A stretch of DNA of 64,000 nt from Oceaniovalibus sp. ACAM 378. Lineage in GTDB: Bacteria > Pseudomonadota > Alphaproteobacteria > Rhodobacterales > Rhodobacteraceae. The notes beneath the pieces are model-generated. The model was not told the DNA's origin, made no database searches, and saw only the letters and a list, made by a program, of their open reading frames with translations. This document shows positions 5,082 through 17,013 of this stretch, in pieces. The DNA lies in contig NZ_VSJK01000002.1 in the NCBI RefSeq assembly GCF_008085915.1, positions 310,001 through 374,000 of the forward strand. Direction: 5' to 3'. The position numbers were made by a program, and so were the translations under genes. How positions within the stretch are numbered: the stretch's first letter is position 1; each line of letters opens with the position of its first letter.

Positions 5082-6004
5082 GCCATATCTATGAACGGGT
5101 TGCGCTGATCGGCTTGGGCCTGATCGCCGGGTCCATGGGGCTTGCCATGCGTCGCGCGGGGCTTGTGGGTGAAATCGTCGGCACTGCGCGCACTGCCGAA
5201 ACCCGCGATGTCGCAGTGGGTCTGGGCCTGTGCGACCGGGTGACAGAGACCAACGCCGAAGCGGTGCAGGGCGCCGATCTGGTGGTTTTATGCGTGCCCG
5301 TGGGGGTGATGGGTGCCATCGCCGCCGAAATAGCGCCGCATCTCGCGCCCGGCTGCACCGTCACGGATGTCGGCTCGGTCAAACGCGCGGTGATCGAAGC
5401 GGTGGGGCCACACCTGCCGGAGGGTGTGCATTTCATTCCGGCCCACCCGCTGGCCGGAACCGAACATTCGGGGCCAAATTCCGGTTTCGCCGATCTGTTC
5501 CGCAACCGTTGGTCATTGCTGGTGCCGCAAGAGGGCACTGATGAGGCCGCCGTGGCGCGTCTGCGTGCATTGTGGGAGGGGATGGGCGCAAATGTTGATG
5601 TGATGGACGCCGATCACCACGATCTGGTGCTGGCGGTGACCAGCCACACGCCGCATCTGATCGCCTATACGATGGTCGGGGTCGCTGACGATCTGCGGCG
5701 CGTCACCGACAGCGAGGTGATCAAATATTCCGCCGCCGGTTTTCGCGATTTCACCCGTATTGCAGCCAGCGATCCGACCATGTGGCGCGACGTGTTCCTG
5801 ACCAACCGCGAGGCGACACTCGAGATTCTTGGCCGGTTCACGGAAGAGCTGTTTGCGTTGCAGCGCGCAATCCGCAAGGGTGACGGCGACCATCTGTTCG
5901 ACTATTTTACCCGCACCCGCGCCATCCGGCGCAGTATCATCGAGGCTGGACAGGACACCGACGCACCGGATTTTGGCCGCAGCGGAGACAGGACCAAAAC
6001 GTGA
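5078..6004 (+). CDS. prephenate/arogenate dehydrogenase
   Basis: TyrA/TyrC-family enzyme of 308 residues, oxidatively decarboxylating prephenate or arogenate with NAD(P) in tyrosine synthesis. An N-terminal Rossmann motif ([18 protein letters not shown]) is followed by the conserved [11 protein letters not shown] segment and a helical C-terminal domain with SHTPHLIAY. The frame is open back to 5030, but the ATG at 5078 is chosen because it overlaps the hisC stop as ATGA and places the Rossmann strand at the usual distance from the N-terminus. The stop overlaps the following GTG by four bases. Cyclohexadienyl specificity cannot be decided from sequence. Confidence 0.88.
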
Positions 6005-6867
6005 CACGGATGACCGGATTGACCCTCGCCATCGCGTTGCTCACCAGCGGCGCGGCTTGGGCGAATCCGCCAACATCTTCCCCCCGGCCCCAGTCCCGCT
6101 CGATTCCGGATACCGAGGTAACGCAGGCCGTTGTTGCCAATACCGCCGAAACAGGTCTGGTCGCGCAGGTCCTGCGAGACGTCAAACAGCCCGCAGCGCC
6201 GGGCAAGGTCGTTCAGGCCACGCTGGCCGGGGGTGTCATACACTCGCCCCGCCCGCCCGAACGGCCCGAAAACCTGTATCGCAAGGCGACGGTGGCGGCC
6301 GCCGGGTTCCGCGCGGTGCCGTTGCCACCGGTCAGCGGAATAAAAGGCACTCTGTGTGGTGATCCGTCGATTCAGGGCGTGCGCATGTCGCCGATTGCCG
6401 GGCGGTTGCGTGGTTGCGGCGTGCCTGAACCGGTGCAGGTGCGCGCTGTGTCGGGCGTGACACTCTCCACCCCCGCCACCATGGATTGCACCACGGCAAA
6501 GGCGTTGAAATCCTGGGTCGACCGGGGCGTCATGCCTGTCATAGGCCGGTTGGGTGGTGGCCCGGCCGAGTTGCGCGTGGCGGCGCATTACTCTTGCCGC
6601 ACCCGCAACAACCAGCCGGGCGCGAAGATTTCAAACCACGGTATGGGGCAGGCGATCGATATTTCCGGTATCGTGCTGCAAAACGGTGTGGCGATCGATG
6701 TGCTGAAAGGTTGGCGCGGTGGGCAGCACTCGGGCATGCTCAAGGCAATGCACCGCGCCGCCTGTGGGCCGTTTGGCACGGTTCTGGGGCCAAACGCCGA
6801 CCGGTATCATCAGGATCACTTTCACCTGGATACCGCGCGATATCGGCGCGGCTCCTATTGCCACTGA
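6001..6867 (+). CDS. extensin-like family protein, secreted
   Basis: Protein of 288 residues with an N-terminal signal peptide (hydrophobic LTLAIALLTSGAAWA, cleavage after AWA) and a proline-rich linker, then a C-terminal extensin-like domain (Pfam ExtL/PF06904 type) from about residue 115. The domain shows HYSCRTRNN, KISNHGMGQAIDISG and a closing HQDHFHLD, the His/Asp set expected for a D-Ala-D-Ala/VanY-like peptidase fold, which suggests murein binding or hydrolysis in the periplasm. The GTG start at 6001 overlaps the previous stop as GTGA; ATG at 6010 is an alternative start. Enzymatic activity is not established for this family. Confidence 0.8.
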   Translation: MTRMTGLTLAIALLTSGAAWANPPTSSPRPQSRSIPDTEVTQAVVANTAETGLVAQVLRDVKQPAAPGKVVQATLAGGVIHSPRPPERPENLYRKATVAAAGFRAVPLPPVSGIKGTLCGDPSIQGVRMSPIAGRLRGCGVPEPVQVRAVSGVTLSTPATMDCTTAKALKSWVDRGVMPVIGRLGGGPAELRVAAHYSCRTRNNQPGAKISNHGMGQAIDISGIVLQNGVAIDVLKGWRGGQHSGMLKAMHRAACGPFGTVLGPNADRYHQDHFHLDTARYRRGSYCH

Positions 6868-6870
6868 GCG

Positions 6871-8064
6871 TCAGACAGAGGCGCGCTGCCAGCCTTCGGC
6901 GAACGTCACACCAGTCAGTCCGGCAAATCTGGCGGTCCGGTTCAGTGCGGATTCCAGCCGCGCACGCCGCCCCGCACCCATCCGCACAGCCGGTTCGGGC
7001 CAGAAAGCGGTGACGTGCAAGGTGCCGCTGGCCCGATTTGCCGCCGTATCGATCCGCCCGATCAGGCGATCCCCCTCAAGCAGCGGAAACACATAATACC
7101 CGTATTTGCGCCGCGCGGCCGGCACGAAGATCTCGATACGATAATCGAACCCGAACAGCCGCAGTGCACGTTTGCGGTCGCGCAGGGCAGGGTCAAAGGG
7201 CGACAGCACGCGGATCATACCCGGCGCGTCGGGCAGGGCGTGCGCCGCCTGCACTGTGCCCGGGCGGGCAAAGTGACTGCGCCATGAGCCATCGGCGGAT
7301 TCAACCTCGATCTGTTCGATTTCGCCGCGGGCGCGGGCGGCTGACACCCATTCCCGCGCCTCGGCCGGAGAGATCAGCGCCCAGAACGCGGACAATTCGC
7401 CGTGGGTGGCGAACCCCAGACGGTCCAGCGCGGCGTTGCAGGCCCAGTCCACCGTCGCCGCTTCGTCCAGCGGTGTGGTGTGAGGCGGATAGACGTTGGC
7501 GGCCAGATCATAGACCTTGCGGAACGCGTCACGGCGGCTCACGGCCAGATCGCCGCACCGCCAGAGGTATTCCAGCGCAGTTTTCGACGGGTGCCAATCC
7601 CACCAGCCATCCCCGGTCTTGCCCGAGGAGCGGTCAGCGAAATCATCGGACCGGCAGGGGCCATCGGTTTCTATCCGCCGGGCGACATTGGCAATTTCAT
7701 CCATATATCCGGGGCGACGCCAATTGGACCATCGGCGTTCCAGCGACACCCGGTCACGGGCGAACCGCAGCCGCCAGTGGGGCAGGAATTCTGTCGGGAT
7801 CACCGATGCATCGTGGGTCCAGTGTTCAAACAGCGTCCGGTCCCGCTCCAGCAGCGGCGGCAGATCCGCCGGTCGATAAGAGGTGCGCCGGGCGTGCAGG
7901 ATCATGTGATGCGCCCGCTCGACCGTCGTCACGCTGTCCACCTGCACAAAGCCGAGCCGGGTGATCAGCGACAGCAGGCCGCCGCCCTGAGATGGCGCAT
8001 CCAGCAGGGCGTGGCGATGCAGAAACAACCGCCGTGCAGCCCCGTTGGTCAGGCGCTGGGTCAT
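6871..8064 (-). CDS. winged-helix DNA-binding protein, YcaQ/HTH_42 family
   Basis: Protein of 397 residues in the HTH_42 (YcaQ/AlkX) family, whose characterised members are DNA glycosylases unhooking interstrand crosslinks. The N-terminus (QRLTNGAARRLFLHRH) and GFVQVDSVTTVERAHH are typical; a QxD-type motif lies in the region FVQVDSV, and the LFEHWTHDASVIP segment is a family hallmark. The frame remains open further upstream to 8247, but ATG 8064 is selected because it overlaps the stop of the DUF2125 gene (ATGA) and starts the conserved region. It converges on the extensin-like gene with three bases between the stops. Confidence 0.82.
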   Translation of the reverse strand: MTQRLTNGAARRLFLHRHALLDAPSQGGGLLSLITRLGFVQVDSVTTVERAHHMILHARRTSYRPADLPPLLERDRTLFEHWTHDASVIPTEFLPHWRLRFARDRVSLERRWSNWRRPGYMDEIANVARRIETDGPCRSDDFADRSSGKTGDGWWDWHPSKTALEYLWRCGDLAVSRRDAFRKVYDLAANVYPPHTTPLDEAATVDWACNAALDRLGFATHGELSAFWALISPAEAREWVSAARARGEIEQIEVESADGSWRSHFARPGTVQAAHALPDAPGMIRVLSPFDPALRDRKRALRLFGFDYRIEIFVPAARRKYGYYVFPLLEGDRLIGRIDTAANRASGTLHVTAFWPEPAVRMGAGRRARLESALNRTARFAGLTGVTFAEGWQRASV

Positions 8065-9047
8065 CTGAGCCTTGGCGCCGGACCCAGTGGAACCGGGCCC
8101 AGCGACACCAGACCCTTGGCAAAGTTCAGCGGCATCGTGACGCTGTCCGAGCCGCCCGACAGCAGGGCCAGACCCTTCTCGACCGTATCCTTGAGCCCGT
8201 CCTGTACCAGCCCGGCGGCAACGGCCATGTCGAGCATCCCGCGCCACTGGGTCGCCGTAACGGTCACGAGCCCGGTGGGGGTGCCGGCCTCGTCGACGGT
8301 CAGCGCGCCGGTCGCCTCCAGCGTCATGTCACCCCAGATCATCCGCGCCGAGGTCACGTCAAGCGCGGTCAGTTCCGGGCGATCGGCACCCAGCGCAGAC
8401 CGGTCCCACGGCGCATCGAAGGCAGCGGTCGCGTCGATCTTCAGGGTTTCCAACGCGGCGGGCAGGGTGCCCTCTGGGTCAAGCCGACTGCGCAAATCCG
8501 AAGTCGGCGCGAACCCAAGCAGTTCCAGACCGATGTCATGGGCGTTTTCCCGCGCGACCGCACGGCGGGTGGCCAGCCGTCCTTCGTCCAGAGAAACCGA
8601 CCAGCCGCTTCGCCCGGTCACAGTGACCGTCTCGGCGATGAATGCCGAGTGATCCAGAGCAAGGGAGGTATTGGGAGCAAACACCACCGATCCGCGCATC
8701 CGGTCGCTGGTCACGGCGATGTCGTCGAAGGGCGTCGTGATGCTTTGCAGGTGCGGCAGGGCGGCGATCACATGGTTGGGTTTATAGCTGAGCGCGAGAA
8801 TCTGCGCGATCTCTCCGGACCAGCCCAGCCCGCTTTGCGGATCGGCAAGGGTTAGGCCGGTCACCGTGGTGTCGAAACGATTGGGAAACCCCGAGGTGTT
8901 CAGCCCGTCATAGGCAACGGTCCAGCCATCGGCACGGCGCGCCTCCAGCCAGGCGGTCAGCCCTCGTTCCACCGCCGACGCGCCGACGAACCAGTATCCG
9001 CCCCAAGCCAACGCCGCGATTACGATCACCGCGATAAGTATGCGCAC
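8061..9047 (-). CDS. DUF2125 family membrane-anchored protein
   Basis: Protein of 328 residues with an N-terminal signal anchor (ILIAVIVIAALAWGGYWFV) and a periplasmic domain of the DUF2125 type, common in Alphaproteobacteria and of unknown function. The start of the mature part (ERGLTAWLEARRADGW, then NTSGFPNRFD) is diagnostic of the family. The domain is rich in beta-strand-like alternation and resembles AsmA-type envelope proteins in general character; that resemblance is an impression only. It overlaps the downstream winged-helix gene by four bases, and its start is 91 bases from the divergent cyclotransferase start. Confidence 0.82.
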   Translation of the reverse strand: MRILIAVIVIAALAWGGYWFVGASAVERGLTAWLEARRADGWTVAYDGLNTSGFPNRFDTTVTGLTLADPQSGLGWSGEIAQILALSYKPNHVIAALPHLQSITTPFDDIAVTSDRMRGSVVFAPNTSLALDHSAFIAETVTVTGRSGWSVSLDEGRLATRRAVARENAHDIGLELLGFAPTSDLRSRLDPEGTLPAALETLKIDATAAFDAPWDRSALGADRPELTALDVTSARMIWGDMTLEATGALTVDEAGTPTGLVTVTATQWRGMLDMAVAAGLVQDGLKDTVEKGLALLSGGSDSVTMPLNFAKGLVSLGPVPLGPAPRLR

Positions 9048-9138
9048 GCCCGTTCCTTTCGGTCACTTCGGTGCCGAGCCCCTTTCGCCCGGCGTCATGG
9101 TGGTGTTTACAGGCGGAGCAGAAAAAGGACCAGTCGTC

Positions 9139-9675
9139 ATGGCAATGTGGGTGTTCGGATACGGATCGCTGATGTGGAACCCGGGGTTCGGCGTCGCCGA
9201 AAAGGCGGTGGCGACACTGGGCGGTCACGCGCGCACCTTCTGCATGCGCTCGATCCATCATCGCGGCAGCTCGGCCGCGCCGGGGCTTGTGCTTGCGCTT
9301 GATCCGCACCCCGATGCCTGTTGCATCGGTCTGGCGTTTCGTGTCGTCGACGGGATCGAGGACCAGACACTTGCGGATCTGCGCGAGCGTGAACTGATCT
9401 CATCGGCCTATGTCGAGCGTGAGGTGACTCTGGATCTGGTGGACGGGCGGCAGGTGACCGCGCTGGCCTATGTCGTTGACACCGAACATGTGCAGTACTG
9501 CGGCGGCCTGCCGCTTGAGGAACAGGCGCATATCATCGCTCATGCCGTCGGCGATCGCGGGCCGAACACCGAATATCTGTACAACACCGTTGCACATCTG
9601 GGCGATGTGGGTATTCCCGATGCCGATCTCGGCTGGCTTGACGGACGGGTGCGGGAAATCCTCACAAAGGGCTAA
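9139..9675 (+). CDS. gamma-glutamylcyclotransferase, ChaC family
   Basis: Enzyme of 178 residues related to ChaC, which releases 5-oxoproline from glutathione gamma-glutamyl groups in the cytoplasm. The N-terminus MWVFGYGSLMWNPGF carries the family's YGSL substrate-binding loop. The segment EEQAHIIAHAVGDRGPN followed by EYLYNTVAHL is the usual C-terminal region. The frame is open from 9040, but ATG 9139 is taken as start because it directly precedes the conserved beta strand; ATG 9145 is equally possible. The start region is divergent to the DUF2125 gene, so the two probably share a promoter region at 9048-9138. Confidence 0.85.
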   Translation: MAMWVFGYGSLMWNPGFGVAEKAVATLGGHARTFCMRSIHHRGSSAAPGLVLALDPHPDACCIGLAFRVVDGIEDQTLADLRERELISSAYVEREVTLDLVDGRQVTALAYVVDTEHVQYCGGLPLEEQAHIIAHAVGDRGPNTEYLYNTVAHLGDVGIPDADLGWLDGRVREILTKG

Positions 9676-9728
9676 TCTTTGGGGGATATTGGACATTCGC
9701 CACGGCTGCTTTATGCTGCGGCGCAACA

Positions 9729-10955
9729 ATGAAAAGTCAGGGCAGTTCCATGGCGCGCAAGCCGGGTCGCGAGGCCGAGCCGCAGTTTACCCAACCCGTG
9801 CGCCAGATCACCATGATGCTGGTGGTACTGGTGCTGGTCGCGATGGGCGGATACGTCGCCTTTCCGCGCGTTGCGCCGGTGTTTCTGGCCAATCCATGGC
9901 TGAACGGTTTCATCGCGCTGGTGTTCGTCTTCGGAATTCTCGCCTGTTTCTGGCAGGTGTTCCAACTGTATCAATCGGTGTCCTGGATCGAAGGCTTCGT
10001 TGCCGAAAATCCGGGCCATGAATTTGTCAGCGCACCGCGGCTTTTGGCTCCGCTTGCGGCGCTTTTGCGGTCGCGTGGGCGAGAGATGCAGATCTCGGCG
10101 TCCTCATCCCGATCAATTCAGGATTCCGTTGCCACGCGGATCGACGAGGCGCGGGATATCACCCGGTACCTCGTCAATCTGCTGATCTTCCTTGGCCTTC
10201 TGGGCACATTCTATGGCCTTGCCACGACGGTTCCGGCGATTGTCGAAACCATCCGCGGCCTTGCCCCGCAACAGGGCGAAGACGGCATGGCGGTATTCGC
10301 CCGTCTGATGGGCGGGCTTGAGAAACAGTTGGGCGGCATGGGGGTGGCATTTTCGTCATCGCTTTTGGGGCTAGCCGGATCGCTGGTCGTTGGGCTGCTG
10401 GAACTGTTTGCCAGCCATGGCCAGAACCGTTTTTACCGCGAGCTTGAGGAATGGCTGTCCAGCATCACGCGCCTTGGATATGCCGCCAGCGGCGACGGAG
10501 AGTCGCAGGGTGATGCCGGGATGATCGCCGCGCTGATGGATCATATGGTGCGCCAGATGGACCAGATGCAGCAGATCTTCGTCGAATCCGATATGGCCCG
10601 TACCGAGGTCGACAGACGGTTGGGTGATCTGGCCGCTTCCATCGACCGAATGACCCAGCGGATGGAATCCGAAGGTGCTGTGTCGGGCGCGCTGGATCGC
10701 GTGGCGCGCGGGCAGGACAAGCTGGCCGAACTGATGGAAGCCCAGGCCGAACAGGGCGGCGGCTCGGTCGATGCCGAAAGCCGGATGCGCCTGCGCTCGA
10801 TCGATGTGCAGCTGCTGCGTCTGCTTGAGGAAATGGCCGCGGGCCGTCAGGAAAGCACCTCCGAGCTGCGCAATGACCTCAAGCAGTTGATCCGCGCTGT
10901 AAGGGGTCAGAGCCGGATCGAGGCATCGCCTGCCAGCAACGGCAGCCGGAGCTGA
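9729..10955 (+). CDS. MotA/TolQ/ExbB-type proton channel protein with coiled-coil tail
   Basis: Inner-membrane protein of 408 residues. Predicted membrane segments lie near residues 27-46, 57-79, 147-170 and 203-228; the last two form the MotA/ExbB core (FLGLLGTFYGLATTVPA and GMGVAFSSSLLGLAGSLV). From about residue 230 a cytoplasmic charged helical tail rich in Gln, Glu, Met and Arg follows, with coiled-coil character. It starts the two-gene unit with the MotB/OmpA-like partner 3 bases downstream. By family it should use proton flow to drive its partner; what is moved is unknown. ATG 9750 is an alternative start. It is not a flagellar MotA by context, as no flagellar gene lies nearby. Confidence 0.82.
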   Translation: MKSQGSSMARKPGREAEPQFTQPVRQITMMLVVLVLVAMGGYVAFPRVAPVFLANPWLNGFIALVFVFGILACFWQVFQLYQSVSWIEGFVAENPGHEFVSAPRLLAPLAALLRSRGREMQISASSSRSIQDSVATRIDEARDITRYLVNLLIFLGLLGTFYGLATTVPAIVETIRGLAPQQGEDGMAVFARLMGGLEKQLGGMGVAFSSSLLGLAGSLVVGLLELFASHGQNRFYRELEEWLSSITRLGYAASGDGESQGDAGMIAALMDHMVRQMDQMQQIFVESDMARTEVDRRLGDLAASIDRMTQRMESEGAVSGALDRVARGQDKLAELMEAQAEQGGGSVDAESRMRLRSIDVQLLRLLEEMAAGRQESTSELRNDLKQLIRAVRGQSRIEASPASNGSRS

Positions 10956-10958
10956 ACC

Positions 10959-13703
10959 ATGGCACTGACGCGCCGCTCCAACCGTGCCGTCTCCAACAGC
11001 ATCTGGCCCGGTTTTGTAGATGCGATGACGGCACTTCTGCTGGTGATGATGTTCGTTCTGACCATATTCATGGTGGTCCAGTTCGTGCTGCGCGAAGAGA
11101 TTTCCGGTCAGGAAACCGAGCTTGACGCGCTGGGGTCCGAGGTGGCGGGGCTGACCCGGCTTCTGGGGCTCGAACAGGCGCGCACTGCGGATCTTGAAAC
11201 CGCCAACACCGATCTTGACGCCGAATTGCAACAGGCGCGCGGCCGGGTCACCGAGCAGGACACATTGATCTCGAGCCTGACCGCAGCGCGCGAAACCCAA
11301 GCCGCCCGGATTGCCGATTTCGAGACGCAGTTGGCGACGCTTTTGACCGAACGGGACGCTGCCCGGCAAGAAGGCGCATTGCTCAGCGCCTCGGTCGATG
11401 AACTGGAAGCGGCGCAAACACAGTTGCTGACCGAGCAGGAGCAATTGCAGCTGGCACTGGCCCGCGCCCGCGATGAAATCGACGTGACTGCCGAACAGGC
11501 CCGCCTTGCCGCCGCCCGCCGCGAGGCTCTTGAGGCGATGACGGCGGATTTGCGCAACACTCTGGGCGACCGCGACGCGACACTGGCCAACCTGACGGCG
11601 ACGTTGGACGATACACAACAACGGCTGAGCGATGAAGAACAGGCGCGCCTTGCCGAAGCCGCCGCAGCCGAGGCGCTGCGCGAGCGGTTGCAGAATTCCG
11701 ACGCCGAGCTTTCCGCGATGACGCTGGCGCTTGAGGAGCAGCGCAAGCGTGCAGAAGACACGCTGACCCTGCTGGCCGCGGCCGAAAAGGCGGGCGAGGA
11801 TCTGGATGCGAAACTGGCCATCGCGCTGCTGGATCAAAAGGCCGATGCTGCCGGTCTGGCGCAACTTGCGACGGACAAGGCCGATTTAAACCGGCGTCTG
11901 GCGCTGGCGATGCTGACGCAGGATAAGACCGACGAACAGCTGGCCACCCTGCAAATCGCGCTGGATCAGGCCGAAACCGACCGGGCGGCGCTGAACGCGA
12001 AACTGGCGGCAGCGCTGCTGGCCGAAGGGAAGAGTGCCGAACAGGTGGCGGCGCTGACGGCCGATCTTGAAGGATCGGCAACGGATCGCGCCGATCTGAA
12101 CCGGCGGTTGGCAGCGGCGCTGACCGAGCGTGACGATGCGTTGGCGCAGGGCATGGCACTGGGCGAACAGGCTGCTGAATCCGATACCGCCCGCGCCACC
12201 CTGAACCGCGATCTTGCGGCAGCACTGTTGGCGCAGGACGAATTGCGCGCGGCACTGGACGCCACCACCGGCGCGTTGGAAACAGCCGAGACCGATGCGG
12301 CGACACTGGACGAACGGTTGGCGGCGGCGCTGCTGGCAAAGGATCAGACCTCCGAGGCGCTGGCCGAGGCGCGCGCTGCGCTGGACACTGCCGGGCTTGA
12401 CCGCGAGGACCTGACCGCGCGTCTGTCCGCCGCGCTGTCACAGGCCGATACCCGGCAAGGCGAGCTGGACGACAGCGAGGCGGCGCTGGCCGCAGCCCTG
12501 ACCGCCCGCGCCGCCCTGTCCGATGACCTGCAACAGGCCGAGGCGGCGCTTTCCGCTGCCCTGACCACCCGCGCCAAGGCCGAGGGTGAACGGGAATCAG
12601 CCGAGGCTCTGTTGCGGGCGGCGTTGCAGCAAGTTGATGAAACGACCGATGAACTGGCCACGATATCCGCCGCATTGCGCGCCGCCGAAGCCGCGCGCGA
12701 GCTGTTTCAGGGCGATTTGCAGGCCGCCCGTGATCGTTTGGCCGAAGCAGAGTCCGAGGTGGATCGCCTGCGTGAAACCGTGGGCCGCGAGGCGACCGAA
12801 CGGGATCGTCTGGCCGCCGCTCTGGATGCCGCCCGTCGCGAGGCCGTCGCGCTGGAAAACGCAGTCGGTGCCGACGAAAACCTGCGCGATCAACTGGCCG
12901 ATGTGTTGGCCGCGAAGCTGGCCGCCGAACGGCAGGTCGAGGCGCAACTGTCCGAGGCCAAGCAACGCGCAGTGCTTTTGGCCACGGCCAATCAGCAGCT
13001 TGAATCCGAAGAGGCACGATCAGCCGAAAGTCAGCGCCGGTTGACCGTGCTGAACCAGCAAGTGACCGAATTGCGCCGCCAGTTGGACCAGTTGCAGGGG
13101 TTGCTGGATCTGGCATCCGATAAAGACAAAGTCAGCCGCGTGCGCATTGAATCGCTGGGCTCTGACCTGAACGCCGCTTTGGCCCGCACCGCAATCGAAG
13201 CGAAACGCCGCGCCGAACTGGAAGCCGCCGAACGCCAGCGGCTGGAACGCTATCAGTCGGAATTCTTTGGCCGGTTGCGCGATGTTCTGGGCGACCGCGA
13301 AGGGGTCAAAATCGTCGGCGACCGGTTTGTGTTCTCATCCGAGGTGCTTTTTGAGAGCGCCAAGGCGGAACTTTCCCCCGAGGGTGAGGCGCAGATTTCC
13401 GGCGTGGCCGATCTTTTGCTTGAGGTGTCGCAAGAGATTCCCGAAGGCATCGATTGGGTGATCCGCGTCGATGGTCACACCGACAACGTGCAATTGAATC
13501 CAACGGCACAATATGCCGACAACTGGGAGCTGAGCCAGGCGCGTGCCTTGTCAGTTGTGCGGTATCTGACCAAACAGCGGGGGTTCCCGGCAAACCGGCT
13601 GGCCCCCACAGGATTTGGCGAATTCTATCCGGTGAACACAGCCGATACGCCCGAGGCACGGGCCCAAAACCGGCGAATCGAGTTGAAGCTGACCGAGCGA
13701 TAG
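10959..13703 (+). CDS. MotB/OmpA-type peptidoglycan-binding protein with giant coiled coil
   Basis: Protein of 914 residues with three parts. Residues 17-45 form one membrane helix starting FVDAMTALLLVMMFVL, with Asp21 in the place of the proton-accepting Asp of MotB/ExbD. Residues 46-770 are an almost unbroken Ala/Leu/Glu/Arg/Gln coiled coil, expected in the periplasm, including heptad-phased tandem repeats (residues 282-547). Residues 775-914 are an OmpA-like domain (RVDGHTDNVQLN and NWELSQARALSVVRYL, ending NRRIELKL) that should bind peptidoglycan. The partner channel gene ends 3 bases upstream. The architecture is that of a stator unit whose linker is far longer than in MotB (about 300 residues in total). 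Function unknown. Confidence 0.82.
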   Translation: MALTRRSNRAVSNSIWPGFVDAMTALLLVMMFVLTIFMVVQFVLREEISGQETELDALGSEVAGLTRLLGLEQARTADLETANTDLDAELQQARGRVTEQDTLISSLTAARETQAARIADFETQLATLLTERDAARQEGALLSASVDELEAAQTQLLTEQEQLQLALARARDEIDVTAEQARLAAARREALEAMTADLRNTLGDRDATLANLTATLDDTQQRLSDEEQARLAEAAAAEALRERLQNSDAELSAMTLALEEQRKRAEDTLTLLAAAEKAGEDLDAKLAIALLDQKADAAGLAQLATDKADLNRRLALAMLTQDKTDEQLATLQIALDQAETDRAALNAKLAAALLAEGKSAEQVAALTADLEGSATDRADLNRRLAAALTERDDALAQGMALGEQAAESDTARATLNRDLAAALLAQDELRAALDATTGALETAETDAATLDERLAAALLAKDQTSEALAEARAALDTAGLDREDLTARLSAALSQADTRQGELDDSEAALAAALTARAALSDDLQQAEAALSAALTTRAKAEGERESAEALLRAALQQVDETTDELATISAALRAAEAARELFQGDLQAARDRLAEAESEVDRLRETVGREATERDRLAAALDAARREAVALENAVGADENLRDQLADVLAAKLAAERQVEAQLSEAKQRAVLLATANQQLESEEARSAESQRRLTVLNQQVTELRRQLDQLQGLLDLASDKDKVSRVRIESLGSDLNAALARTAIEAKRRAELEAAERQRLERYQSEFFGRLRDVLGDREGVKIVGDRFVFSSEVLFESAKAELSPEGEAQISGVADLLLEVSQEIPEGIDWVIRVDGHTDNVQLNPTAQYADNWELSQARALSVVRYLTKQRGFPANRLAPTGFGEFYPVNTADTPEARAQNRRIELKLTER
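11802..12599 (+). repeat. heptad-phased tandem repeats inside the coiled-coil gene
   Basis: Residues 282-547 of the OmpA-type protein repeat a core of the form L-x-x-x-LAxALL. Successive copies are spaced 28, then five times 35 (residues 310-484, bases 11886-12410), then three times 21 residues, all multiples of seven, so the heptad register is never broken. Cores read directly include LNRRLALAML, LNAKLAAALL, LNRRLAAALT, LNRDLAAALL and LDERLAAALL. The nucleotide copies have diverged more than the protein copies, which argues for old duplications kept by selection on register. Confidence 0.8.
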
Positions 13704-13727
13704 GGCGGGGGCTGCCGCGCAACCCGC

Positions 13728-14690
13728 CTAGGGGGTGATGGTCAGGACGGTCGCGCGTTGTTCGATTTCGGCTCCGTCGCGCAGCAATCGGATCGTGCCG
13801 GTGTAGTCACCCGCAGACCATCCTTCGCCCGGCGTTCTCCGTCCGACGGCGCGGAAATACTGCGCCAGTGGCCGGTCCAGAGTGGCCTCTTGCGACAGGA
13901 CATTGCCCGACGGCCCGGTGATTGTGATCTTCAGGACATCGCCCGCATGGCCGCCGTACCCATAGGCCCAGAGAACAAGCGCGGGCGCACCGCCGGGCAG
14001 CGATTCAGCACCAGCCGTCCCGTCCTTGATCGCCGCATATTCGGGCACCGCATCGGAGAAACCCGCCGCGATCAGACCGCCGGGGCGGTATTCGGGAGTG
14101 TCCTGCCACAGGGTGCGTTCGGGCGTACCGCAGGTGAAAGTGGCATCGGGATTGAACGGATCAATGATTTCCCCATCGTGGCGCACCGAAAGGTGAAGAT
14201 GCGGAAATTCGGTCTGCCCGCTTAACCCGACTTGACCCAGCACTGTTTGCGCATCCACGCCATTGCCGCGTCTAACCTGAATCGAGCCGCGTTTCATGTG
14301 GCAATACTGGGTTTCCCAGCCGTCGCCGTGATCAATGACCACGCCATTGCCGCATTCCTTGTCGGTCACATCGGGGGCCCCATCGCTCCCCTGCAAATGG
14401 TCAGCCATGCCGTCGCGTACGCTGCGCACCACACCGGGCGCGCCGGGATAGACATCCACGCCCGCCCGAAACGCGGCAAGCGATTGCAGCGCGATATCTG
14501 TGCCCTTGTGCCCGTCATAGCTGAGCGGACCGCAAGAATAATCACTGGCCCCGGGTCCAGAGTCGGCATCGGTATATTGCTGGATGAAACAGCTGCTGCC
14601 GAGGGTGCAATCAAGCGGGAGATTCAAAACAGGCTCGCCCGCGACCGCAGGGGTCGCGAGCGTCAGTGACAGGATCAGCGCCCCCCGCAC
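13728..14690 (-). CDS. M23 family peptidoglycan endopeptidase, secreted
   Basis: Protein of 320 residues with a signal peptide (GALILSLTLATPAVA) and an M23/LytM-type metallopeptidase domain. The zinc ligands are visible as HKGTD (H..D) at about residue 60 and HLHLSVR (H-x-H) at about 165, with a third His in QYCHMKRG. A C-terminal beta domain of about 120 residues follows. It starts 4 bases after the clpA stop on the same strand, so it is probably co-transcribed with clpA, and it converges on the OmpA-type gene. The likely role is cell-wall hydrolysis in the periplasm; the substrate is not evident. Confidence 0.85.
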   Translation of the reverse strand: MRGALILSLTLATPAVAGEPVLNLPLDCTLGSSCFIQQYTDADSGPGASDYSCGPLSYDGHKGTDIALQSLAAFRAGVDVYPGAPGVVRSVRDGMADHLQGSDGAPDVTDKECGNGVVIDHGDGWETQYCHMKRGSIQVRRGNGVDAQTVLGQVGLSGQTEFPHLHLSVRHDGEIIDPFNPDATFTCGTPERTLWQDTPEYRPGGLIAAGFSDAVPEYAAIKDGTAGAESLPGGAPALVLWAYGYGGHAGDVLKITITGPSGNVLSQEATLDRPLAQYFRAVGRRTPGEGWSAGDYTGTIRLLRDGAEIEQRATVLTITP

Positions 14691-14694
14691 CCGA

Positions 14695-17013
<2,319 letters not shown>

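Follow-up and report, generated by a model that had tools for sequence, protein, structure and literature searches.

A candidate non-flagellar motor pair with a long predicted coiled-coil stalk in Alphaproteobacteria

What could a bacterium do with a channel subunit whose partner carries a coiled coil far longer than the periplasm is wide? The question is raised by two adjacent genes, here A and B, in a 64,000-nt stretch of the Oceaniovalibus sp. ACAM 378 genome (contig NZ_VSJK01000002.1, positions 310,001 to 374,000; "the window", in which coordinates are counted from the first base). A first-pass annotation, made from the sequence alone, had described an A protein of 408 aa and a B protein of 914 aa, and its open reading frames (ORFs), lengths and coordinates proved correct. 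We give a probability of roughly 55% to the reading that A and B form a motor-type complex, distinct from the flagellar one, which a long, adjustable rod ties to peptidoglycan and which perhaps acts at the division site or the poles. At the level of sequence and models, the analysis demonstrated a channel fold, conserved polar residues, a wall-binding-type domain, a coiled-coil rod and near-obligate pairing of the two genes. The pair is already in databases and its relatives have perhaps been overexpressed; in the open-licence literature, we found no published mechanism, function or description of the stalk for this family. The features of the pair are as follows.

9729-10955, + strand: gene A, a 408-aa channel subunit of the MotA/TolQ/ExbB/ZorA fold, from the ORF, an AlphaFold2 model and structure matches
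9798-10484, + strand: predicted membrane core of A, residues 24-252 (AlphaFold2); Thr160 and Ser211 are invariant in 55/55 aligned homologues
10485-10952, + strand: predicted cytoplasmic helical tail of A, residues 253-408 (AlphaFold2 helices to residue 399)
10773-10871, + strand: conserved stretch of the A tail, residues 349-381 (23-row own-family alignment)
10959-13703, + strand: gene B, 914 aa with a MotB-like helix, a coiled-coil stalk and an OmpA domain (NCBIfam NF006542)
11019-11021, + strand: codon for Asp21 of B, which lies in the membrane motif WPGFVDA and is predicted to carry the ion, by analogy with MotB and ZorB
11094-13256, + strand: B stalk, residues 46-766, a proline-free predicted coiled coil with one heptad register over 46-671 and shifts near 672 and 741
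13347-13673, + strand: B OmpA domain, residues 797-905 (PF00691, 62.9 bits against a cut-off of 27.2)

Channel subunit A, wall-binding subunit B and their pairing

The two genes lie on the + strand, 3 nt apart. The single-chain AlphaFold2 model of A, made with 55 aligned sequences, had a predicted local distance difference test score (pLDDT) of 80.9 and placed helices at residues 24-52, 56-91, 104-116, 124-177 and 186-252, followed by tail helices up to residue 399. A Foldseek search of the PDB with this model ranked ExbB, ZorA and TolQ first (probability 1.0, best E 5.2e-3). VIA-align gave Z scores of 11.8 for TolQ, 11.3 for ExbB, 10.8 for ZorA and 9.3 for a flagellar sodium stator (185-194 residues); its rows 1-26 were all TolQ, ExbB, ZorA or MotA (Z 11.8-9.1 over 178-206 residues), and the first unrelated row scored 8.8. 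As modeled, the core of A has the membrane fold of the MotA/TolQ/ExbB superfamily. The standard Pfam model misses A: MotA_ExbB (PF01618) gave 12.9 bits, below the cut-off of 22.9, and did not recover A in a search of its own genome either. A search of PDB sequences with the A profile produced matches confined to the coiled coil of the tail (best E 0.0019).

The PF01618 search did identify five further MotA/TolQ/ExbB genes in the same genome, which we take, from the surrounding ORFs, to be one TolQ-like gene with a TolR-like partner, three ExbB-like genes with ExbD-like partners and one flagellar MotA-like gene. Thr160 of A sits in a GT motif that hhalign paired with the own-genome TolQ-like protein (21 columns, P 9.6e-5, probability 58%). 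This motif of membrane helix 3 and the core fold are shared with TolQ-TolR and ExbB-ExbD, whereas A differs from TolQ and ExbB in having one extra N-terminal membrane helix, as MotA has. The tail of A ranged from 3 to 177 aa across the class-wide rows, and a loose C-terminal pattern that fits 47/55 of them could mark the motor output.

B belongs to NCBIfam NF006542 (PRK09039.1-1; 754.3 bits, cut-off 388), one of five models (PRK09039.1-1 to -5, NF006542-NF006546) that carry the name "peptidoglycan -binding protein". The sequences are thus already catalogued, in a named family for which we found no mechanism in the literature. Among seven other B or B-like genes compared with the five models, six passed at least one and the divergent gene of locus L176 matched none. 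A search with NF006544 did not discriminate, since the own genome stayed below the cut-off just as all 14 control genomes did.

Asp21 of B lies within IWPGFVDAM, and WPGFVDA was kept in 73/73 complete adjacent B genes of loci from the window's own family (Rhodobacteraceae). A broader set of 133 B proteins was picked by WPGFVDA and NRRIE, so the conservation of these motifs within the set is not evidence, including that of Asn904-Arg905-Arg906 (133/133). Asp842 and Arg862 of the OmpA domain, which were not used as criteria, were likewise present in 133/133. We take these to be residues of the peptidoglycan-contact type, and with its PF00691 match and both residues B has the signature of an OmpA-type peptidoglycan binder. 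When 78 downstream ORFs were taken unselected, 68 had the Asp motif and 66 the OmpA end, the remainder being divergent or wrong ORFs. The membrane Asp and the OmpA domain that the first-pass annotation had singled out are indeed conserved.

That annotation had also proposed checking whether the two genes are conserved together, and they are. In a draw of 385 genomes of the class Alphaproteobacteria, the A profile matched 248, mostly in one copy each, and a 70-residue profile from the start of B also matched 248; 246 genomes had both, 135 had neither, and just 4 had one without the other, 2 with A and 2 with B (Fisher p 9.6e-100, phylogeny ignored). A few pair genomes are smaller than 1 Mb (e.g., G068 and G103). 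Across a phylum draw of 398 genomes, 114 matched, 27 of them outside the class and 6 of these 27 above 200 bits. B stood directly downstream of A in 67/81 fetched loci, among which divergent loci had deliberately been included. For the own family, A was complete in 79/80 loci (the exception being L009) and B in 73 of those 79. Five of the six loci without a complete B end 0.6-1.4 kb past A; the sixth, L074, has a normal A and no recognizable B in the 10 kb after position 11170.

Length and geometry of the stalk

The coiled coil had been put at about 725 residues and some 100 nm, and this estimate held up well. The window stalk has 721 residues, ~107 nm if straight at a helix rise of 0.1485 nm per residue, with no proline between B residues 17 and 807. 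Its heptad score was 0.231 per residue against a maximum of 0.115 among 200 shuffles. For comparison across B proteins, we used the 115 homologues with both anchors, 18 of the 133 having been dropped before the length test because the OmpA anchor was absent. Proline accounted for 2 of 44,526 stalk residues in this set, against 858 of 14,620 residues of the OmpA parts, 113/115 stalks were proline-free, and the heptad score exceeded all 20 shuffles for 115/115. Core position a was mainly Leu, Ala, Arg, Ile or Val, and position d mainly Leu or Ala. The single register of the window stalk spans 626 residues (46-671); shuffled stalks yield register runs of up to 391 by tracking alone, and for this reason the heptad score serves as the test in place of run length.

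Judged from the sequences, the giant length is a lineage feature: own-family B proteins have 512-1118 aa versus 342-350 aa in four of the five PRK09039.1 models (the fifth has 627 aa). Stalks measured 319-925 residues in the own family (n = 68; 47-137 nm if straight) and 137-439 residues in other families (n = 47; 20-65 nm). These lengths were strongly uneven modulo 7. Counts in the other families were 0, 2, 11, 0, 0, 33 and 1 (chi2 134, df 6), and the 24 unique lengths still gave chi2 45.4, a value reached in 0/200,000 simulations; own-family counts were 3, 17, 10, 3, 9, 21 and 5 (chi2 30.2; 59 unique lengths, chi2 24.2, p 0.0005). Uncollapsed other-family lengths were uneven also modulo 6, 8 and 11 (chi2 17.7, 26.7 and 24.9), an effect that was gone with unique lengths, for which moduli 5, 6, 8, 9 and 11 showed nothing comparable to 7. 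Steps of 3 or 4 fit coiled-coil stutters.

Repeats within the B genes point the same way. The twelve top-scoring tandem array rows from the 115 genes had periods of 336, 105, 84, 105, 84, 84, 84, 84, 84, 84, 63 and 42 nt, all multiples of 21 nt, in a group that was chosen after inspection, has two rows overlapping others and is followed by two arrays of period 39. Overall, 37/108 arrays had periods that were multiples of 21 nt and 94/108 multiples of 3. Periods of 21n nt fit stalk growth by whole heptads. The window's own B gene contains a 9-nt repeat pair only, and tandem duplication is therefore visible in relatives and not in the window; internal anchors for splitting the stalk matched in 1/68. 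With its length evolving in whole-heptad steps, the stalk is a tidy example, open to testing, of a part that may bear force.

The rod is longer than the ~20-nm width of the periplasm, so a straight rod must run along the envelope. The first-pass annotation had held that it must fold back, bundle or exert long-range force. When charges at positions e and g were scored in 13 registers, the in-register pairing ranked first in 60/115 stalks, where ~9 were expected. Together with the lack of proline and the heptad-quantized lengths, this charge pairing favors a straight, in-register parallel dimer. A bundle of helical hairpins, in which the ~100 nm would not be real in the cell, is a lesser but serious possibility; it concerns geometry only and would be compatible with any function. 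It has on its side that the periplasm is several times narrower than a straight rod would be long and that the AlphaFold2 monomer of B (pLDDT 66.1; predicted template modeling score, pTM, 0.28) splits the stalk into five low-confidence helices, and against it the proline-free stalks, the 626-residue register, the quantized lengths and the family-wide in-register parallel pairing. The sequence evidence leans to the straight dimer, and the monomer model is too weak to decide.

A candidate motor and its alternatives

In the reading that we prefer, A and B would make a motor in the inner membrane that is powered by ions, like MotA-MotB and ZorA-ZorB. Five A subunits may surround two B membrane helices, by analogy with relatives, and the ion path would comprise Asp21 of B and Thr160/Ser211 of A, as conservation and the relatives suggest. 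Above the membrane, the two B chains are predicted from sequence to join in one parallel in-register coiled-coil rod ending in OmpA domains that would grip peptidoglycan. Since B would be held fast by the wall, the passage of ions would rotate the A ring relative to B, and the cytoplasmic tail of A may pass the motion on to a partner; a pull on the wall would be the mirror image. A Rhodobacteraceae rod of 47-137 nm, if straight, would lie mostly along the periplasm, and the motor would then act at some distance from its wall anchor. The likeliest use would be envelope work at the division site or the poles, the weakest step, which draws on overexpression and green fluorescent protein (GFP) data from Komagataeibacter hansenii. 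A bolder version is unlikely in all its parts at once: a class-wide motor whose anchor is a straight in-register dimer running sideways in the periplasm for 50-140 nm, whose ring acts on, or is held by, distant wall, whose length arises by lineage-specific whole-heptad duplications, and whose role would be in constriction or polar wall remodeling.

K. hansenii has no flagellum and carries a 348-aa MotA with four predicted transmembrane (TM) helices and a 321-aa OmpA-like MotB with one (PMC6570709, PMC6315621). Overexpression of motA, motB or motAB gave long or chained cells, and GFP fusions were polar (PMC6570709, PMC6315621). Matches of its MotB to OmpA/MotB proteins from Rhizobium, Rhodospirillum and Magnetospirillum had 46-48% identity over 95-99% coverage (PMC6570709). 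Like A and B, the two genes form an adjacent pair of a four-TM A and an OmpA-type B; unlike the window B, a MotB of 321 aa leaves room for a short stalk only. For Brucella abortus, a table of genes that have BvrR binding sites includes an adjacent pair that may belong to the A-B family, BAB1_1725 (motA) and BAB1_1726 (COG1360); the flagellar motB, BAB2_1103, is a different gene, and BAB1_1725 bears a virulence citation (PMC9491525). As a separate observation, two R. sphaeroides studies between them mention an OmpA-family protein and a peptidoglycan-binding protein, neither established as B (PMC10470522, PMC9275681); the DalA pull-down of the former names RSP_1033 (OmpA family) and RSP_1880 (peptidoglycan-binding domain) in its Table 1.

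Several points weigh against a wall-anchored motor. The 5:2 stoichiometry, ion flow and rotation would all be carried over by analogy. Foldseek of A against the PDB returned nothing at E <=0.001, and helical proteins with a VIA-align Z below ~13 may just have a common arrangement. The tail pattern is absent in 8/55 A homologues, some almost tailless, so an output through the tail is not universal. For the window stalk itself, the in-register score was second of 13 (0.030 vs 0.034 at a five-heptad shift), and low-confidence breaks in the B monomer model near residues 200, 320, 460 and 630 would permit folding back. In the reduced genomes of loci L170, L179-L184 and L187, B was unrecognized beside A, and the genomes still match the B profile; L170, L180 and L183 had no B candidate beside A at all, yet their genomes (G152, G132 and G005) match, and the pair there seems, from these matches, to persist without an operon arrangement. 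None of the association and length statistics was corrected for phylogeny. K. hansenii motA and motB are probably of the same family as A and B, an assignment set by description and not by alignment; their overexpression, a blunt test, also raised colony spreading, and the genes caused no visible change of E. coli cell shape (PMC6570709).

Ion flow might instead make B pull, push or release peptidoglycan in constriction, without A being turned against a cytoplasmic partner, as in a Tol/Ton-like force transducer. We regard this as doubtful. TolQ and ExbB had the top VIA-align Z scores, but both were within 1 of the best ZorA and are therefore counted as tied; the K. hansenii phenotypes are similar to those of E. 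coli tolQ/tolR overexpression, which its authors cite (PMC6570709). B, however, has its own OmpA domain; none of TolA, TolB, Pal or TonB was among the eight proteins around the pair that were Pfam-scanned (6001-17013, A and B being two of the eight); and what we take to be a TolQ-like gene with an adjacent TolR-like ORF lies elsewhere in the genome (L001). To our knowledge, TolR and ExbD are without an OmpA domain.

It is quite improbable that the pair is a passive wall-to-membrane tether with no motor action. The wall-binding signature and the stalk would suit a tether, and ion flow is argued by analogy; conservation of Asp21 in B and Thr160/Ser211 in A, and the near-constant retention of A with B, speak for more than that.

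A Zorya-like anti-phage defense motor is very improbable. ZorAB forms 5:2 complexes and depends on ion flow, on the A tail and on binding to peptidoglycan (PMC11890865), and A-B resembles ZorA-ZorB in its MotA-like, presumably pentameric fold and in a B subunit that has a membrane Asp and a wall-binding domain of the OmpA type. PADLOC matched A to ZorA1 (3.9e-10) and B to ZorB3 (2.7e-20), both weakly. However, the only NCBIfam ZorA model that matched A, NF033917, scored 15 bits against a cut-off of 500, and no protein among the eight scanned fits the effectors ZorC/D or ZorE; Zorya identity was rejected. The giant extension is B's periplasmic stalk here and A's cytoplasmic tail in ZorAB. Nor is the distribution defense-like: A is usually single copy in 248/385 class genomes, often by suhB, efp, thiE, gap or pgk, unlike patchy defense islands.

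That the pair is a flagellar stator or auxiliary stator is hardly credible, despite relatives named MotA/MotB in databases and a matching overall architecture (an A with four membrane helices, a B with a single one and an OmpA domain), because FliG, found in 228/385 class genomes, is missing from 95 of the 246 pair genomes and present in 151 (odds ratio 1.28, p 0.28), and a separate gene, presumably MotA-like, has its own PF01618 match in the genome. FliG presence and the pair are thus not tied, unlike in flagellar MotA-MotB, and stator identity was rejected. Where A-B has a tail and a stalk, MotA-MotB has a FliG interface and a short plug/linker (in part after PMC12505986). A 2025 survey that covers MotAB and its non-flagellar relatives states that non-flagellar B subunits are without an OmpA-type domain (PMC12505986); the A-B family contradicts this rule. 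The first-pass annotation's uncharacterized non-flagellar channel/OmpA pair, distinct from a known stator or TolQ/R, is borne out by the 95 genomes and by the separate genes in the own genome that we take to be TolQ-, ExbB- and MotA-like. What results is a motor-type pair in 246/385 sampled Alphaproteobacteria for which no published function was found.

Gene neighborhood and outlying loci

Flanking murein genes had been offered as a sign of cell wall remodeling. Extensin-like and M23 genes do occur in the vicinity; the former is not adjacent, since the Pfam scan placed AlkZ, DUF2125 and ChaC genes between it and the pair, and the strand that encodes M23 is not that of the pair. With tblastn, window proteins were compared with 56 own-family loci longer than 20.5 kb and 72 other-family loci (~8 kb each side). 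The own-family loci had ChaC in 56, DUF2125 in 55, ClpA in 45, extensin in 38, M23 in 33 and AlkZ in 3, whereas all six were found in 0/72 other-family loci, where remote extensin or M23 could escape. The murein neighbors do not carry over to other families, so the argument from them is unsupported and this neighborhood was rejected as functional evidence. The DUF2125 protein (window 8061-9047, opposite strand), present in 55/56 loci, lies beside ChaC.

In 78 fetched loci (8 own-family), the neighbors that recurred, named from cluster representatives, were an ATP-binding cassette (ABC) ATPase in 32 (in most cases downstream and on the other strand), inositol monophosphatase in 23, elongation factor P in 22, thiamine phosphate synthase in 13, glyceraldehyde-phosphate dehydrogenase in 12 and phosphoglycerate kinase in 11. 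In S. meliloti, where A is annotated as "MotA/TolQ/ExbB proton channel family protein" and B as "peptidoglycan -binding protein", inositol monophosphatase lies just upstream of the pair with thiamine phosphate synthase beyond it, and downstream there is an ABC gene on the opposite strand. A 3.7-Mb Sinorhizobium record titled plasmid pSymB (CP090106; L196, L197) contains genes that look chromosomal, rpmE, pgk and pyk among them, and its title may be wrong.

Some loci depart from the common architecture. In two reduced genomes of 1.3-1.4 Mb (L176:3578-8726; L177:7893-12392 and downstream), A-like proteins of 1336 and 1499 aa are followed by a protein of 365-369 aa that keeps a WP(S/V)(F/Y)(V/A)D motif and has no OmpA end; the L176 one had no NCBIfam match at 1e-20. 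These two loci are possibly a long-tailed, ZorA-like branch. At L175:7077-9602, a B-like gene (255 aa, without an NRRIE-type OmpA end) precedes an A-like gene just upstream of elongation factor P; the other listed members of its family, f13, had no match. Clear A-B pairs outside the class were found at L155 and L158 (f205), L152 and L153 (f217) and L154 (f230), the f205 A being only 243 aa and nearly tailless. Finally, a record titled Nocardioides marinus (L044) holds a typical Rhodobacteraceae pair and is probably a mislabeled or contaminated assembly.

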